DNA of 46,895 nt, taken from the NCBI GenBank assembly GCA_015521465.1, contig WAOD01000100.1, positions 1 to 46,895 on the forward strand, given 5' to 3'. Each line of letters begins with the position of its first letter. Position 1 is the stretch's first letter. The position numbers and the translations under genes were made by a program. The notes beneath the pieces are model-generated. The model had not been told where the DNA came from. It was given only the letters and a program-made list of their open reading frames with translations, and made no database searches. Origin of the DNA: DHVE2 group archaeon. GTDB taxonomy: Archaea > Thermoplasmatota > Thermoplasmata > Thermoplasmatales > Aciduliprofundaceae. This document shows positions 7,216-40,893 of the stretch, one piece after another.

Positions 7216-7602
7216 GTGGTTAATGGCGATGATAGGATGGTCCGCGTTCCACGGGATATGTACGATGCCATTGGTGAGCTTATAAAGAAGTATCCTCAAT
7301 ATGGATGGAAAGGCCCTTCTGAGTTTGTCAGGGATGCCATTCGAAGGTATGTGGAAGAGTTGCACAGGCGTGAGATTCTTTTAGAGCAGGCTAAACAAAT
7401 TATGCCTGACCGTGTTAGAGCCATTCTTTCAAAGTTCATGGGTGAAAACGAGGCAAAGGACGTTTATGAAAAGATAATGAAAATAGACGAATCTGACCCG
7501 GAAAAGTTCATAGATGAGGTTGTTCTTATCTTGAAGGAGCATGTGGGAGAGAAGCTTGCAGAGTTGATTGCTCGGAGAATTGTAGAGGAGAGGGGATTAT
7601 GA
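7216..7602 (+). CDS. Ribbon-helix-helix (CopG-like) DNA-binding protein
   Basis: A 128-residue protein whose N-terminal part (MVRVPRDMYDAI..., then GPSEFVRDAIRRYVEE at about 33-48) matches a ribbon-helix-helix fold: a short beta strand, then two helices with the SEFVRDAIR turn. The remainder is helical and uncharacterised. GTG 7216 is used as start because an AAAATTAAATA TATA element at about 7184-7196 lies 20-30 nt upstream; an in-frame ATG at 7237 is an alternative. Its stop overlaps the start of the KaiC-like gene (ATGA), so the two are translationally coupled and this protein probably regulates or partners that ATPase. Confidence 0.78.
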   Translation: MVNGDDRMVRVPRDMYDAIGELIKKYPQYGWKGPSEFVRDAIRRYVEELHRREILLEQAKQIMPDRVRAILSKFMGENEAKDVYEKIMKIDESDPEKFIDEVVLILKEHVGEKLAELIARRIVEERGL

Positions 7603-9005
7603 AGGTAAGTACAGGTATAAAAAATCTGGATATGATTATGGACGGTGGCTTTGTAGAGCGAAGTTTTAACCTGGTGTACGGAGGCGGTGGTACTGGAAAA
7701 ACACTGTTTACTTTTAACTTCCTGCTTAACGGTGCTGAAACAGGGAACAGCGTTCTTTATGTCACCTTGGAGGAATCTTGGGAGGATATCATTCGCAAGT
7801 TACCTGATGGTATGAGAAAGAGACTTAATGCGATCAAGAATAATTTTCATTATCTGGACTTTGGCAGCTTGAGACCAGTTCTCGGCAAAGAGATAATGAA
7901 TGTTGATGTGCTCATGGAAGCCATAGCAAGCAGCATAGTGGTGAATAATGTAACCCTTGTTGGGTTTGACGGAATCGCACCTCTGTCCATTTACTATGAT
8001 GATGAACATAAATTGAGGAGTGTGATATTCAATTTATCACAGGGTATAAAGAGTTACGGTGCGACTACAGTGTTTACAAGCGAAGAAATTGAGGGGCGTA
8101 GCAGGTACGGTACGGAAGAGTTTGTGGCTGATTCTGTTATTCGCCTTATTTACACAGGTGAGAAGCGCAGGATTCAGGTTTTGAAATCTCGTGGCACGGA
8201 TTTTGTAGGGGGAAAGCACGGGTTGGAGATAGTATCCGATGGTCTCCGAGTTTATCCAAAGATTTTGTTTGTTGGTTCAAAAATAAAGCAAAAATCTGTG
8301 AGCATTGGAATACCTAAGTTGGATACCATGCTCGGGGAGACATTTTCAGGGGACATAACACTCCTTACCGGGCCTCCTGGCACTGGCAAGTACCTTTTTG
8401 GCATTTCATTCATAAAGAACGCTTGCAAGCAGGGTAAAAAGGGATTGTTCATCTCTTTTGAAGACAGTGTGGGGAAGATAAAGAGGAGGTTAGAAGATTC
8501 AGGTGATGGCAAATCTCTGTGCAGGGTTGTTTACATAGACTCTGGGAATATTGATATTTACAAGTTGATGTGGCAGTTAAAGTCTTTAGCGACAGATGCC
8601 AATAGGCTGGTTCTACATGGCATGAATAATCTTGCTGGCAACGATGAGTACGAGGATTTTGTTCACGAGTTTTTGAAATACGTGAGGGCAAGTGGTATTA
8701 GTACTATGGTAACATACAATACCTCTCAGGTGATAGCTACAAATACACTGGGAGATGATAAAATTGTGAATCTATCAGATAATATAATAAAGCTTCTGTT
8801 CGCGGAAATAGGCGGTGAGCTAAAGAAAATTTTGGTTATAATTAAAAGTCATTCACCTACCCACGAGCGTGGGCTGGTGGAGTACCGTTTGGGCAAGAGT
8901 GGTGTTGTGATTGTGGGTAAAATAGAAGGTATGGAGGGCGTGATAAGCGGCACGCCTACGAGGCAAATGGAGATTAAAAAGAGGGTAGAAAGTTTTTTCA
9001 AGTGA
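7599..9005 (+). CDS. KaiC-like ATPase with two RecA domains, second one degenerate
   Basis: 468 residues with two KaiC/RecA-type modules. The first has a complete Walker A (GGGGTGKT, 28-35) followed by the paired glutamates typical of KaiC (TLEES) and a hydrophobic Walker B-like LVGFDG. The second begins near residue 230. Its P-loop reads GPPGTGKY (258-265), with Tyr where Ser/Thr should coordinate Mg, and the Walker B position reads LVLHG, lacking the Asp. It keeps the FEDS glutamate region. One active and one regulatory or structural module is therefore likely. Family members act in signalling, archaellum control or clock-like systems; none of these is demonstrated here. Coupled by a 4-nt overlap to the upstream RHH gene. 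Confidence 0.85.
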   Translation: MKVSTGIKNLDMIMDGGFVERSFNLVYGGGGTGKTLFTFNFLLNGAETGNSVLYVTLEESWEDIIRKLPDGMRKRLNAIKNNFHYLDFGSLRPVLGKEIMNVDVLMEAIASSIVVNNVTLVGFDGIAPLSIYYDDEHKLRSVIFNLSQGIKSYGATTVFTSEEIEGRSRYGTEEFVADSVIRLIYTGEKRRIQVLKSRGTDFVGGKHGLEIVSDGLRVYPKILFVGSKIKQKSVSIGIPKLDTMLGETFSGDITLLTGPPGTGKYLFGISFIKNACKQGKKGLFISFEDSVGKIKRRLEDSGDGKSLCRVVYIDSGNIDIYKLMWQLKSLATDANRLVLHGMNNLAGNDEYEDFVHEFLKYVRASGISTMVTYNTSQVIATNTLGDDKIVNLSDNIIKLLFAEIGGELKKILVIIKSHSPTHERGLVEYRLGKSGVVIVGKIEGMEGVISGTPTRQMEIKKRVESFFK

Positions 9006-21804: not shown

Positions 21805-22354
21805 TACTTCCTAAATCTATGACATCGTCTACGAAGGTTGTTGCCTGACTGAACTCCACTTCTTCAAGTTCCTTGTCCAGCATAAATATTATGCCGACCA
21901 TGTCGTATAATCTGATTTCGTTTGTAATCTTTCTTAGAAATCGTATGAAACTCTGATATGAGTTATATGCAAGCAGTGTGCTTATGGACTCTATATACAC
22001 AAAATTCTCCTCTCCTGAAAGTGCGTTAATTGCATGGTTTAACGTTCCCTCTAACAGCACCAAATTGGGGGCGTCCAAGTAAATTACCCTGCCCGTTGTT
22101 TCTACCGGTTTTATTGAAGATGTTATGCAGTCTATAAAGAACACTTTTGATGAATCTGCACCTAATTTTTTCAGGTTCTTTTCCACGGTTGAGTGTGGGA
22201 TGTTAAGTGCTATGTAAACACCTTCTGTATCCTGCCTTTTGAGCAAGTTGCTAACTATGTAGTATCCCAGCTTCGTTCTTATGTGGGGCTTTGCGATAAT
22301 CATGACCACTTTTCCTTCGTCGATAATCTCCGTGAGTATATCATCTACCTTCAT
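21782..22354 (-). CDS. Degenerate KaiC/RecA-like protein without P-loop
   Basis: 190 residues with a RecA-like alternation of strands and helices (VVMIIAKPHI, VFFIDCITSS, NFVYIESISTLL, GIIFMLD) but no Walker A motif. The first strand leads directly into KPHIRTKLGYY. The IDCIT and YIESIS segments resemble KaiC-family Walker B regions. It is probably a non-hydrolysing partner of the KaiC-like ATPase encoded immediately upstream, with which it shares a 4-nt start/stop overlap. No further family assignment is offered. Confidence 0.72.
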   Translation of the reverse strand: MKVDDILTEIIDEGKVVMIIAKPHIRTKLGYYIVSNLLKRQDTEGVYIALNIPHSTVEKNLKKLGADSSKVFFIDCITSSIKPVETTGRVIYLDAPNLVLLEGTLNHAINALSGEENFVYIESISTLLAYNSYQSFIRFLRKITNEIRLYDMVGIIFMLDKELEEVEFSQATTFVDDVIDLGSITLDDLR

Positions 22355-23046
22355 AGCACTAATCCCTCATCCGTTATGTGAAATGGCATCCAGTAGGTTG
22401 GGTGATTCACCCCGTATCTTTTCATTATCTTCATTGCTCTCATGTACATGTTCTTTGACTCTATGTAGTCCATCACAATGGTCGCCTCAGCGAAATTGCG
22501 CATTTCTCCTCCAGATGTAACTTCTCCCAGGTTTGATTCTTCAATGAGCATGGCGGATATGCCCACTTTGTTGAAGTATTTTATGAACTGCGAAGAAACG
22601 TACCTGAATAGTGCTTTATCTCCTATTATCCTGTCAAAGGAGGTTATGCTGTCAATAACTCCACGGTGTATCTTGATTTTTGGCATCATGTCCTCATCAA
22701 TGATATCCGGCATAACATTATGGAACAGCCTCTTCTGCTTGTTTTCCGTGAATGGAATTAGTTCCTTTGGCTCTACATCCATGTTGTACCATCTTATCTT
22801 AGATGCTGCATCCTTTAAGAACGGTGCCGAGCCGTAGTACTCTTTAATTCTTTCCACCGGAACAGTTGTGGATATGTAAACCACGTTTTGCCCGTTCTTA
22901 ACTCCTTCTGCAAGCCATTGTAAAGCTAAAAGGGTTTTGCCAATTCCCGTTGGTCCCACTATCAGAGACACGCCACCCTTTGGAAATCCTCCGCCAAGCG
23001 CATCATCCAATTTCTTTATTCCAGAAGGCTCAAAACTTATTGTCAT
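22351..23046 (-). CDS. KaiC-like single-domain ATPase
   Basis: 231 residues starting MTISFEPSGIKKLDDALGGG, the typical KaiC opening, with Walker A GPTGIGKT (about 33-40) and a Walker B region GVIDSITSFDR. The frame is open another 55 codons upstream, but those residues are atypical and a TATA element (TTTTTAATAATC, rc of 23067-23078) lies only 20-32 nt before ATG 23046, so the shorter start is right. Likely a signalling or regulatory ATPase acting with the degenerate partner downstream. Divergent from the GNAT remnant. Confidence 0.86.
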   Translation of the reverse strand: MTISFEPSGIKKLDDALGGGFPKGGVSLIVGPTGIGKTLLALQWLAEGVKNGQNVVYISTTVPVERIKEYYGSAPFLKDAASKIRWYNMDVEPKELIPFTENKQKRLFHNVMPDIIDEDMMPKIKIHRGVIDSITSFDRIIGDKALFRYVSSQFIKYFNKVGISAMLIEESNLGEVTSGGEMRNFAEATIVMDYIESKNMYMRAMKIMKRYGVNHPTYWMPFHITDEGLVL

Positions 23047-23109
23047 AGTTAGGTAATGGGAAATATGATTATTAAAAAGTTGCTTTGTGATTATCACGTG
23101 TGAAAACAA

Positions 23110-23886
23110 ATGTTTTATTGTGAGAAAATGATTAATGATTCTGTGATACTCAAAAACGAGAAATTGAAGGAACTTGAAGAATTTTGCGTTCAAGACCCTG
23201 TGAAGCATCATTTTGCACTGTGGGATTTAAAGGAGGAAATGGAAAACACTGATTTTTACATATATTGGAATGGTAAAATAGAGGGGTATATGCTAATTTA
23301 TTCAGGGGGCGCAGTTCCAAGTGTTATACTGCATGGTGATAAAAATGCTATAGCGGAGTTGCTTAATGAGGTAAAATTAAAAAGGGTGTTATATAGATAC
23401 TAAGATGTTAGGGACAGTTTTTCCATCAGTGAATTTTTGGGGGTGGTTATACAGTGTTGATCTTATGGCTACAAAACCCGCACCTTTTCCTTTCCAGGAT
23501 GATGTACAAAGAATTAAAGAGATATCCCTTTTGAAGGATATTTTTAAGGACACCACATGCCTCGTCAAAAAACGATAACTTTTTGGGTTGTAAATAATGG
23601 GTATAGTAATTAGCGTTGTCCCGGCTCTTGGCATCTTCCTGAGGTATGGGTAATCGGTGCAGTTTTTACTCGTAATGAATTCAGAAACATGAGTTTTGCG
23701 AGCAAGGTTCTATCGCATATAGTTAGTTATTCACATGGTATAACTGAAAACCTTGTTCTCTAAGTAAGAAGTGATAATCAACCAGCAATCCAAATCTATG
23801 AAAAATACGGGTTTAAAAAGTGTGGGAGAATGCATGGATAGATGCCTGCATGGATGTCATTCCGTGATTATGCATATAATCCGTAA
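23110..23886 (+). pseudogene. Decayed GNAT-family N-acetyltransferase
   Basis: Pieces of one acetyltransferase lie in order over 780 bp. The N-terminal third is intact in frame 1 (23110-23403: ...DPVKHHFALWDL...). Frame 2 then carries a block from 23405 (VDLMATKPAPFPFQDD...) to TAA 23576. Frame 1 resumes near 23650 with VIGAVFTRNEFRNMSFASKV, is stopped by TAA just before 23764, and continues with SDNQPAIQIYEKYGFKKCG, the classic GNAT motif B. Another in-frame TAG follows before MPAWMSFRDYA. The acetyl-CoA loop (normally R-x-x-G-x-G/A) reads RNMSFA and is damaged. At least one frameshift and two or more stops mean the gene is dead. The 97-residue ORF at its start could still be translated but would lack the CoA site. 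Confidence 0.8.
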
Positions 23887-39134: not shown

Positions 39135-39255
39135 ACAGCTATAATTGATAGCAATTATAAAAAACTTGATTTCATGGATTTTTAGAAAATTTTTAGGAGT
39201 AAAGTTTATATTGTGATGGAACATTACAATCTAAGGTATAGCAGGAGGCTTTGCT

Positions 39256-40893
39256 ATGAATGATAAAGGATTTGTTAATGGAAATGGTATGCGGCGAAAT
39301 TCGTCAAGGGGTGCAATTAATGGCCTTACAAATGGGAAGGGGAATAAAGATGGGCTTGTTAACGGCAACGGTTCAAATAATAACGTGGCTAAAAAAGGAT
39401 TTATGAGTTCTCCAAAAGGCAGGGCTGGTGCGTGGATTGTGATTGGAGTGGTCCTGCTTTTAATATTCGGGGCGTTTGCCGTCTCTACCAATTCCATGAA
39501 AAAGACTGATTGGAATTCCATACGGAAGTACATTGATTTTGACATGTCTTCGGTTAATGATAAAAATATAAATATAGAGAAATTTGCATTTCACAAAACG
39601 GACACCACCTTTGAATTTTACCTGAATTTCGAAGGTGATTTCTCCAAAACGGCTGAATATCAGAATCTTGGATTTATACTGATAGACAACGATTCCAATC
39701 CAAACACGGGATACAGTGCTGGATATCTTGGGGCGGATTACGTAGTTGAGATTTACGGAAATAACGGAACGATAAGTGCTACATTTTCGAAGTTTTCTGG
39801 TGGAAACCCGCATGTGTGGAACTGGACTGAAATAGAATCTGTGGCAATTAGTCATCGCACTCCAGATATTATCACTGGGGCGGTTAACTATAAAATAAGT
39901 TCCAACGCTAAAATAATGGTTCTCACGGAAACAGGATACTACCAGGACATAACCCCAGTGGTTGGAATTCAGAAGCCCGCACTTCTTGTGATTCAGACTC
40001 CTTTGGTGAACAATACGCTCAGGCTGGATTTGAAGCCCATGTACAGCACGGTTAATGTGAAGAGTATAACTCTTCAGGTTCCGATGGGTGTGGAAATAAA
40101 GGGAGTAGTTGGCTCCAAGATTACTGGCATTGGAAATATAACCACTCCCAAGACTATATACCTCAGGATTGACACAAGCAACGTGTACAACAGAGGTGTG
40201 GAAGTAAAGGTTCTGTCTGTGGAAACTAATGCTGTTTATACCATATGGGGTAACTCATACAGAAAATATGTTGGCACTCCTGACCGTATAGTCATAGACG
40301 GGTACTTTAAGGACTGGGATACTATAAAGGGAATAAACACTTTCAGGAGTGATACCACAGGGGATGTTGCAAATCCGAATATTGATTTGTACCTGTACAG
40401 CAATTACACAGATAGCAATGGAACGTACTTCTACGCAAGCGTGACCGGAACAATGTTGGCGGGAAATATTGCTCCCGTTATGGAGAAAGCTGGACATCCA
40501 TGGGGTAATACCACTGTGATTCCTAAGGGCGTTTCTCCTTGCGACTATGCACAGATAACTTTCACTACAAAGAACCATCAGACACACGTGATTCAGGTAT
40601 ACGGCTACAATGGAAAGGTGATTAAAGTGCTGTTTGATGGAAAAGAGACGAACAGTGTGAAAGTTGGAGTGGGAAGAAACCATGGAAGCGGTGCCTTGGA
40701 AATAGGTATTGACAAGAAGTACGACATTGTTCGCTATTCCGTTAAAATGACAGACTGGAATGGTGAGAGCGATTACTCCCCGGTTGTGAGGGATGTTGGG
40801 ATAGATACCCCTGAATTTAACACAAGCATGCTCGGTGCTTTTCTGTTAATAATTGCAGTGCCCGTGCTTTTGAGAAGAAAAAACAGGGATTAA
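39256..40893 (+). CDS. Exported protein with Asn-Gly-rich N-terminus and PEF-type C-terminus
   Basis: 545 residues. The first 48 are a low-complexity cytoplasmic tail built on the unit (V/I/T)NG (GFVNGNG, AINGLTNGKG, GLVNGNG). A transmembrane anchor follows (about 57-76). The external part has two domains with the theme of an IDNDSNPNTGYS turn (about 143-154) and IDGYFKDWD (about 350-358), the latter recalling CBM9-like domains. It ends with TPEFNTSMLGAFLLIIAVPV and then RRKNRD: PEF, a hydrophobic helix and a basic tail, as in the protein ending at 30150. GGAGG lies 8 nt before the ATG; GTTTATAT at 39204-39211 is the TATA element. Function unknown; probably an envelope protein. Confidence 0.83.
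   Translation: MNDKGFVNGNGMRRNSSRGAINGLTNGKGNKDGLVNGNGSNNNVAKKGFMSSPKGRAGAWIVIGVVLLLIFGAFAVSTNSMKKTDWNSIRKYIDFDMSSVNDKNINIEKFAFHKTDTTFEFYLNFEGDFSKTAEYQNLGFILIDNDSNPNTGYSAGYLGADYVVEIYGNNGTISATFSKFSGGNPHVWNWTEIESVAISHRTPDIITGAVNYKISSNAKIMVLTETGYYQDITPVVGIQKPALLVIQTPLVNNTLRLDLKPMYSTVNVKSITLQVPMGVEIKGVVGSKITGIGNITTPKTIYLRIDTSNVYNRGVEVKVLSVETNAVYTIWGNSYRKYVGTPDRIVIDGYFKDWDTIKGINTFRSDTTGDVANPNIDLYLYSNYTDSNGTYFYASVTGTMLAGNIAPVMEKAGHPWGNTTVIPKGVSPCDYAQITFTTKNHQTHVIQVYGYNGKVIKVLFDGKETNSVKVGVGRNHGSGALEIGIDKKYDIVRYSVKMTDWNGESDYSPVVRDVGIDTPEFNTSMLGAFLLIIAVPVLLRRKNRD

Follow-up and report, generated by a model that had tools for sequence, protein, structure and literature searches.

Tandem Asn-Gly motifs in front of the first membrane helix of Thermoplasmatota surface proteins: a possible cytoplasmic sorting tag

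YSIRK/GXXS signal peptides are found on sortase-anchored surface proteins of Gram-positive bacteria, according to excerpts of two reports (PMC5962339, PMC11898559). The array of Asn-Gly (NG) dipeptides described here resembles these signals in that it is an N-terminal motif on the cytoplasmic side of the first hydrophobic segment of otherwise different surface proteins, and in that it is paired with a C-terminal sorting signal. It differs from them in containing neither YSIRK nor GXXS, in being tandem, with 40 NG in the longest array among the matches listed, and in being archaeal; moreover, its routing role is one that we infer. A second described system is that of PEF-CTERM proteins and archaeosortases (TIGR03024, PF09721), in which the C-terminal PEF, hydrophobic helix and basic end are, by eye, like those of the array proteins; by contrast, the array proteins score below the cut-off of the model, and the NG tract lies at the opposite end of the protein. 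FG/GLFG nucleoporins are disordered, N/G-rich chains with numerous short hydrophobic words that could bind multivalently, and the array can be likened to them; however, its word is L-T/V-N-G and not FG, so that it does not classify as an FG repeat, it is membrane-proximal, and we know of no transport role for it. Similarly, many arrays recall the hexapeptide of the left-handed beta helix, which has a six-residue period with one large aliphatic residue, but periods of 4 and 11 residues also occur, and the model pointing to such a fold is of low confidence and has no PDB match. In Pfam and NCBIfam scans, no known repeat family scored meaningfully at the array (weak TrAA12 matches fell on the repeats of L088, E 0.015, and L136, E 0.23), a sequence search of the PDB gave one chance match (E 0.57), and no description of the repeat was found in the titles and opening lines of abstracts listed by searches of the open-access PMC literature.

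The window, i.e. the whole stretch of 46,895 nucleotides analysed (contig WAOD01000100.1 of a DHVE2 group archaeon, Thermoplasmatota), contains a coding sequence for 545 amino acids at 39256..40893 on the + strand, on which all features listed here lie. The protein consists of an NG tail, a membrane helix, outer beta domains and a PEF-helix-RRK end. Residues 1-48 (39256-39399) read MNDKGFVNGNGMRRNSSRGAINGLTNGKGNKDGLVNGNGSNNNVAKKG and have six NG sites (N8, 10, 22, 26, 36 and 38); the NG-repeat tract proper, residues 1-39 (39256..39372), is predicted to be disordered and cytoplasmic and is built from the units GFVNGNG, GAINGLTNGKG and GLVNGNG. A basic spacer, residues 41-52 (39376..39411), with a charge asymmetry that is also present in relatives, separates the tract from the first membrane helix, a signal anchor placed at residues 53-79 (39412..39492) by an AF2 model. 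Outer domain 1, residues 81-240 (39496..39975), is a CBM9/DOMON-like beta sandwich by structure comparison, and a second outer beta domain, residues 369-513 (40360..40794), is predicted from the model and the alignment; a second IDGxFxDW is present just before it, at residues 347-354. In the PEF-CTERM-like C terminus, residues 519-545 (40810..40890), PEF, a hydrophobic stretch and basic residues can be recognised by eye (PEFNTSMLGAFLLIIAVPVLLRRKNRD), and the order at this end of the protein is PEF, second helix, RRKNRD. In the AF2 model, which was computed from nine sequences, pLDDT was ~30 in the tail and above 70 in most of residues 81-340. Based on the basic spacer and the modelled helix, the tail is predicted to face the cytoplasm. 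The original prediction, in which an NG-repeat tail on the cytoplasmic side was placed at 39256-39399, had the coordinates right, and the side is predicted to be the inner one. By eye, YSIRK is absent from the tail, helix and flanks of this protein and of its eight orthologues.

An AGGAGG ribosome-binding-like site (39243..39248, +) is located 7 bases 5' of the ATG, and 8/8 orthologues have GGAGG no more than 30 bases in front of the equivalent Met; therefore, the alternative that the real start lies at a later Met fails. Matches to the window protein at E 1e-3 were detected in 17/18 genomes of the window's family, and the NG tail was kept in 8/8 of the long orthologues read, all of which align from the start. 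In the alignment of the window protein with these eight orthologues (9 sequences, 36 pairs), pairwise identity was 85% in the four NG cores and 52% in the outer part, which refutes that the tail is unique to this gene or unconserved. The value for the cores also compares with 48% for N, 67% for G and 60% for NG in the outer part. pN/pS over the same pairs was 0.15 in the NG cores, 0.38 in the tail, 0.52 in the spacer, 0.25 in the helix and 0.45 in the outer part, ratios that are only rough because pS is near saturation (~0.7). The orthologues L017 and L018 have lost one core, and another core reads ADG where the window protein has TNG; the orthologue in G010, which belongs to the same genus as the window's genome (G000), is 96% identical.

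At least six NG in any 48-residue stretch were obtained in 1/20,000 shuffles of the whole window protein and in 3,446/200,000 shuffles of the tail's own N- and G-rich composition, and because the latter reach six NG this often, the oddity lies mostly in the composition and only partly in the order. Across the window, NG is not enriched (59 observed and 61 expected, pooled over stop-to-stop frames of at least 150 amino acids in six frames), and short NG patterns were not commoner in this genome than in reversed controls (2 vs 2, 33 vs 51 and 24 vs 23). The searches of this genome covered arrays with NGxxNG or NGxxxxNG spacing and homologues of the window protein. The comparative data are the stronger evidence.

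The impression in the original prediction that such tails occur on other proteins of the lineage was borne out by paralogues, by relatives in the lineage and by proteins well beyond it. In this genome, the paralogues C32 and C86 have a clear array that follows a cytoplasmic part, TPR-like or HhH, and precedes the helix, and a third paralogue, C56, has the single unit GFINGFG. Among the 26 members of the window's family with a recognisable helix, taken from matches in the fetched loci, at least one NG was present in the 75 residues before the helix in 26/26, at least two in 25 and at least three in 22. The members read have 1 to 14 NG in these 75 residues, and the weakest 4/26 have one or two, e.g. 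GFINGFG and NGLVNGFG. The longest array among the matches listed, 40 NG in L096, lies outside this family, and a link of the tail to heat or acid is not supported.

A DNA pattern encoding [LF][TVIA]NGxG twice in tandem, in which the third letter set admits M, was run against 84,980 species genomes; the pattern thus presets the residues L/F, T/V/I/M/A, N and G, and also the G of the following position, in two adjacent units of each stretch. At least 106 stretches matched, at least 86 of them archaeal and at least 20 bacterial (including L089, Brachymonas, which is bacterial by its title), and a search of viral contigs with the array pattern gave 0 matches. Among the 86 archaeal matches listed, 52 are labelled Thermoplasmatota, 31 Euryarchaeota archaeon or alike, for which the NCBI label is Methanobacteriota, and 3 only 'archaeon'; the 34 entries without the Thermoplasmatota label probably belong to the same phylum. 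Arrays are also present in records titled marine group III and groundwater archaea. In a scan of the phylum by GTDB kinship, the strict pattern NG[LF][TVIA]NG matched 164/389 genomes. As a counter of genomes this pattern was rejected, as single matches were by eye about as frequent as in reversed controls and the score was 0 in G001 and G002 although both carry arrays. The informative genomes are the 15 with at least five matches (427 matches vs 15 control matches), and they spread the array signal over many families of the phylum.

The matches listed contain 95 ORFs with the repeat, and setting aside 9 bacterial ones, in which no helix follows the repeat, leaves 86 archaeal ORFs. Among these matches listed, a helix precedes the array in 0/86 ORFs and follows it in 77/86; in the other 9, the fetched DNA stops at most 73 residues past the array, and at most 60 in 8 of them. 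The 77 helix-bearing ORFs among the matches listed form 60 clusters at 50% identity, and all of them (77/77) follow the positive-inside rule, with a mean net charge of +4.2 before the helix and -3.3 after it. The last NG lies at most 50 residues from the helix in 74/77 (range 11 to 298), with a median of 20 and a mode of 16 residues (21/77 ORFs), again among the matches listed. The spacing differs between proteins, i.e. 4, 6 or 11 residues. In the window protein and two paralogues, the glycines fall by eye on one parity; this two-residue register was dropped as a general rule because the 11-residue unit RTNGLTNGVRG elsewhere breaks the parity. Separately, a block G[FLM][TI]NGLG..RF.RE, which is more specific than the repeats themselves, occurs near the helix in 24/86 array ORFs among the matches listed, e.g. 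L071 and L127.

In 41 tandem hexapeptide arrays among the matches listed, two of which are bacterial (L083 and L085), pooled pS was 0.60 and pN 0.09 (pN/pS 0.15), and pN was lower than pS in 41/41; pN is lowered here in that the unit filter presets N, G and G. At positions free of this filter, 314 units from 42 archaeal arrays among the matches listed have L in 268, T/V/I in 313 and N in 215, with unit positions 1 and 2 preset by the scan pattern in two units per stretch. Where two units share the residue at position 1, the codon differs in 533/949 pairs among the matches listed. Because the units are near-saturated at synonymous sites while the amino acids are nearly uniform, selection holds the peptide. 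The same word appears in 45 proteins collected by homology, 26 via the whole window protein, tail included, and the rest via the outer domain. At 227/372 of their NG sites the preceding residue is T, V or I, the background being 17%; among the 231 sites that fit [LFMIRA][TVI]XG, 211 have N as X and 5 have D. Therefore, a generic turn is not enough, and nor is a linker that is just rich in N and G. In total, neither DNA-level slippage nor a plain linker fits these selection numbers well.

The outer domain gave no Pfam match over outer domain 1 in the proteins scanned and no NCBIfam match in the window protein. Foldseek matches to the model of the whole window protein were generic sandwiches, antibodies among them, and a second comparison was clearer: modelled outer domain 1 matched 2ivf_C, the gamma subunit of ethylbenzene dehydrogenase, with Z 10.4 (rmsd 3.3, 150 aligned) and 1i82_A with Z 9.9 (rmsd 3.5, 140 aligned), while the next-best structures, at Z 8.5 and below, were antibodies. 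The model of the domain is thus superposable on the CBM9 beta sandwich and would share its fold; we take DOMON to be the label for these CBM9-like sandwiches. The likeness concerns the outer domain of the protein and not the tail. A family profile, A2, matched the window's outer domain at E 2.5e-26 and the outer parts of 74/77 ORFs among the matches listed, 34 of which had helped to build it; the outer parts lacking a match among those listed are L088, L122 and the incomplete L157 (fragment LDGNIEDW). A looser outer-domain pattern was present in 75/77 ORFs among the matches listed, well above chance, yet it is unspecific because 193/1,440 random downstream windows also match.

In the converse search, an outer-domain profile without the NG tract was run against 60 genomes of the phylum, 11 of which matched. 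The 30 loci fetched contain 24 places with helix plus domain, two of them incomplete at the edge of the locus; in the 22 complete places, at least three NG are present in the 100 residues before the helix in 18 and at most one in 4. One locus, L257, is an added family member with 10 NG. The outer-domain search thereby recovers the array in 19/23 members read, the window not counted, and the four members without it are all from two genomes, G023 and G035. In these two genomes, the helix and the CBM9-like domain are kept and an acidic or plain stretch replaces NG. Since the outer domain occurs there without the array, the array is not indispensable; it is the rule for the CBM9-like family and can be absent. 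In the other direction, L088:4607-5116 encodes an array before the first helix of a protein of 170 amino acids with two predicted helices and no CBM9-like domain, and L122:4067-7081 an array before the first helix, followed after the helix by a DUF1565 match and likewise no CBM9-like domain. Because membrane proteins without this domain carry the array, the tag may be portable.

By eye, [ILVA]PE[FYMG] followed by a hydrophobic stretch and a basic end was present in 28/37 complete array ORFs among the matches listed. TIGR03024 matched 4/6 C termini tried, every one below cut-off, and gave no match to the window's own C terminus, which was matched by two other CTERM models only, also below cut-off. 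An exosortase-family gene (PF09721) was detected in 6/18 genomes of the window's family and in 12/16 picked genomes, and was not found in G000 (the window's draft, 108 contigs, 96% complete), G020, G027 and G185. The gene is present in G010, of the same genus as G000, and its absence from G000 is perhaps an assembly gap.

Three groups of genes cluster near arrays: a KaiC-type group at 18 loci (13 on the strand of the array gene), a TPR group at 11 loci (10 on that strand) and a third group at 9 loci (9 on that strand), which includes the different-looking L110. Pfam on two representatives of each returned KaiC, TPR and winged-helix matches, respectively, in 2/2. The signal is modest and its controls are small: in array loci (570 kb), this genome (198 kb) and other loci (77 kb), TPR matches numbered 13, 1 and 0 and KaiC matches 22, 4 and 0, respectively; moreover, the sole TPR control match is the TPR gene preceding paralogue C56. 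In L071:1491-6971, a KaiC ATPase, TPR and a zinc ribbon are fused to an NG array, a helix and FG-GAP repeats, and a separate KaiC gene overlaps the start of this reading frame. In the window, the frames 7518-9002 (+) and 22354-23226 (-) match a KaiC profile built from array neighbours. TPR or KaiC-type proteins, adjacent or fused in front, are candidate readers of the array.

Altogether, these observations suggest that the window's tail is one case of a family-wide, mostly tandem linear motif with the core [LFMI][TVI]NG, which is found in bitopic surface proteins of Thermoplasmatota and relatives, most of them with a PEF-CTERM-like end, and which mostly stops 11 to 50 residues short of their first helix. 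On the cytoplasmic face of the membrane, the NG units may make many weak contacts with a common reader, or tail with tail; such contacts could gather or route the bearers at a site of export or surface assembly, and the copy number of units would set avidity. The motif would then act as a sorting tag in the manner of YSIRK in staphylococci, to which its sequence is unrelated. That multivalency is a requirement is weakened because 4/26 members of the window's family have only one or two units. We rate as evenly balanced the proposal that this juxtamembrane motif, usually multivalent, sorts or gathers PEF-CTERM-like surface proteins through a shared reader or through itself, the partner and the sorting function being inferred. 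A wider proposal, that the motif constitutes a widespread, portable code of Thermoplasmatota that is read by a dedicated partner, with TPR or KaiC-type proteins as candidates, or self-stacks, and thereby gathers surface proteins, is more tentative. Among the three options of the original prediction (chemical timer, linker or binding repeat), the binding repeat thus fares best, because units near synonymous saturation keep the same amino acids.

It is unlikely that the array serves as a flexible spacer, i.e. as an uncharged and disordered tether that holds the ribosome or cytoplasmic domains off the membrane and in which composition rather than sequence is selected. The low pLDDT (~30) of the tail, the very variable length of the arrays and the cytoplasmic TPR-like, HhH or KaiC part that precedes the array in several relatives would all suit a tether. 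However, the units retain L and T/V/I in addition to N and G despite near-saturation at synonymous sites, D, S or G rarely replaces N in context (10/231), and 22/71 arrays with a closed 5' end among the matches listed begin at most 60 residues from the upstream stop and so have little or nothing in front, which makes a plain linker unlikely.

Somewhat less probable still is that the repeats stack as short beta strands, in a solenoid or an intermolecular sheet, and form a submembrane scaffold for surface proteins. The regular order of L, then a beta-branched residue (T/V/I), then N-G is what a strand-turn repeat could use, and in an AF2 model of 14 LTNGNG copies a three-residue strand recurred every sixth residue over most of the array. 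This model is a hint only: it was computed from a single sequence with a mean pLDDT of 59, and Foldseek gave no PDB match for it at E<=10. Moreover, spacings of 4, 6 and 11 in different proteins misfit one coil, and members with one or two units exist.

A chemical timer, in which NG deamidates with age, adds negative charge beside the membrane and marks old protein or membrane, is very improbable. Among dipeptides, NG is known to deamidate fastest, D seldom takes the place of N in the motif (5/231), and PCMT, the isoaspartate repair enzyme (PF01135 scan of the phylum), is encoded in this genome (E 1.5e-63) and matched strongly (E<=1e-50) in 12/15 array-rich genomes. Against this, L and T/V/I should matter little for NG deamidation but are conserved, two orthologues have ADG at the window's TNG, and the PCMT match is poor or lacking in G332, G334 and G185, whereas many genomes that show no array signal have a strong one. 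As a co-evolving partner of the array, PCMT allows no inference, since strong matches are also found in many array-less genomes; by eye, strong matches (E<=1e-50) seem to follow family lines within the phylum, whole families having or lacking them.

There is very little to recommend a processing site, at which an asparaginyl endopeptidase or ligase of the peptidase C13 type would cut the array after Asn: NGL is a known ligase recognition word and some of the array genomes have C13-like matches (e.g. G027, E 2.3e-15), but the window's genome gave no C13 match and 10/16 genomes gave none either, the rest being mostly weak partial matches, and the array is predicted to be intracellular. Finally, that AAYGGN hexamers expanded by slippage with no function at the protein level is barely credible, as long perfect peptide repeats such as LTNGNG x14 resemble slippage products but, among the matches listed, the same peptide is written in different codons (533/949 pairs; pS 0.60 vs pN 0.09) and the array always lies before the first helix wherever a helix can be read (77 ORFs).

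A simple peptide word is strongly selected in very diverse family members at one spot inside the membrane, and a shared outer domain and a C-terminal signal accompany it. NG-rich need not mean a linker or a degradation hot spot. The word can serve as a peptide bait for a reader and as a search string for surface proteins with an outer domain that Pfam does not match. It also offers a clean test case of whether low-complexity cytoplasmic tails sort archaeal membrane proteins. If the proposal is true, it would describe a multivalent sorting tag of a kind that we have not found described for archaea.
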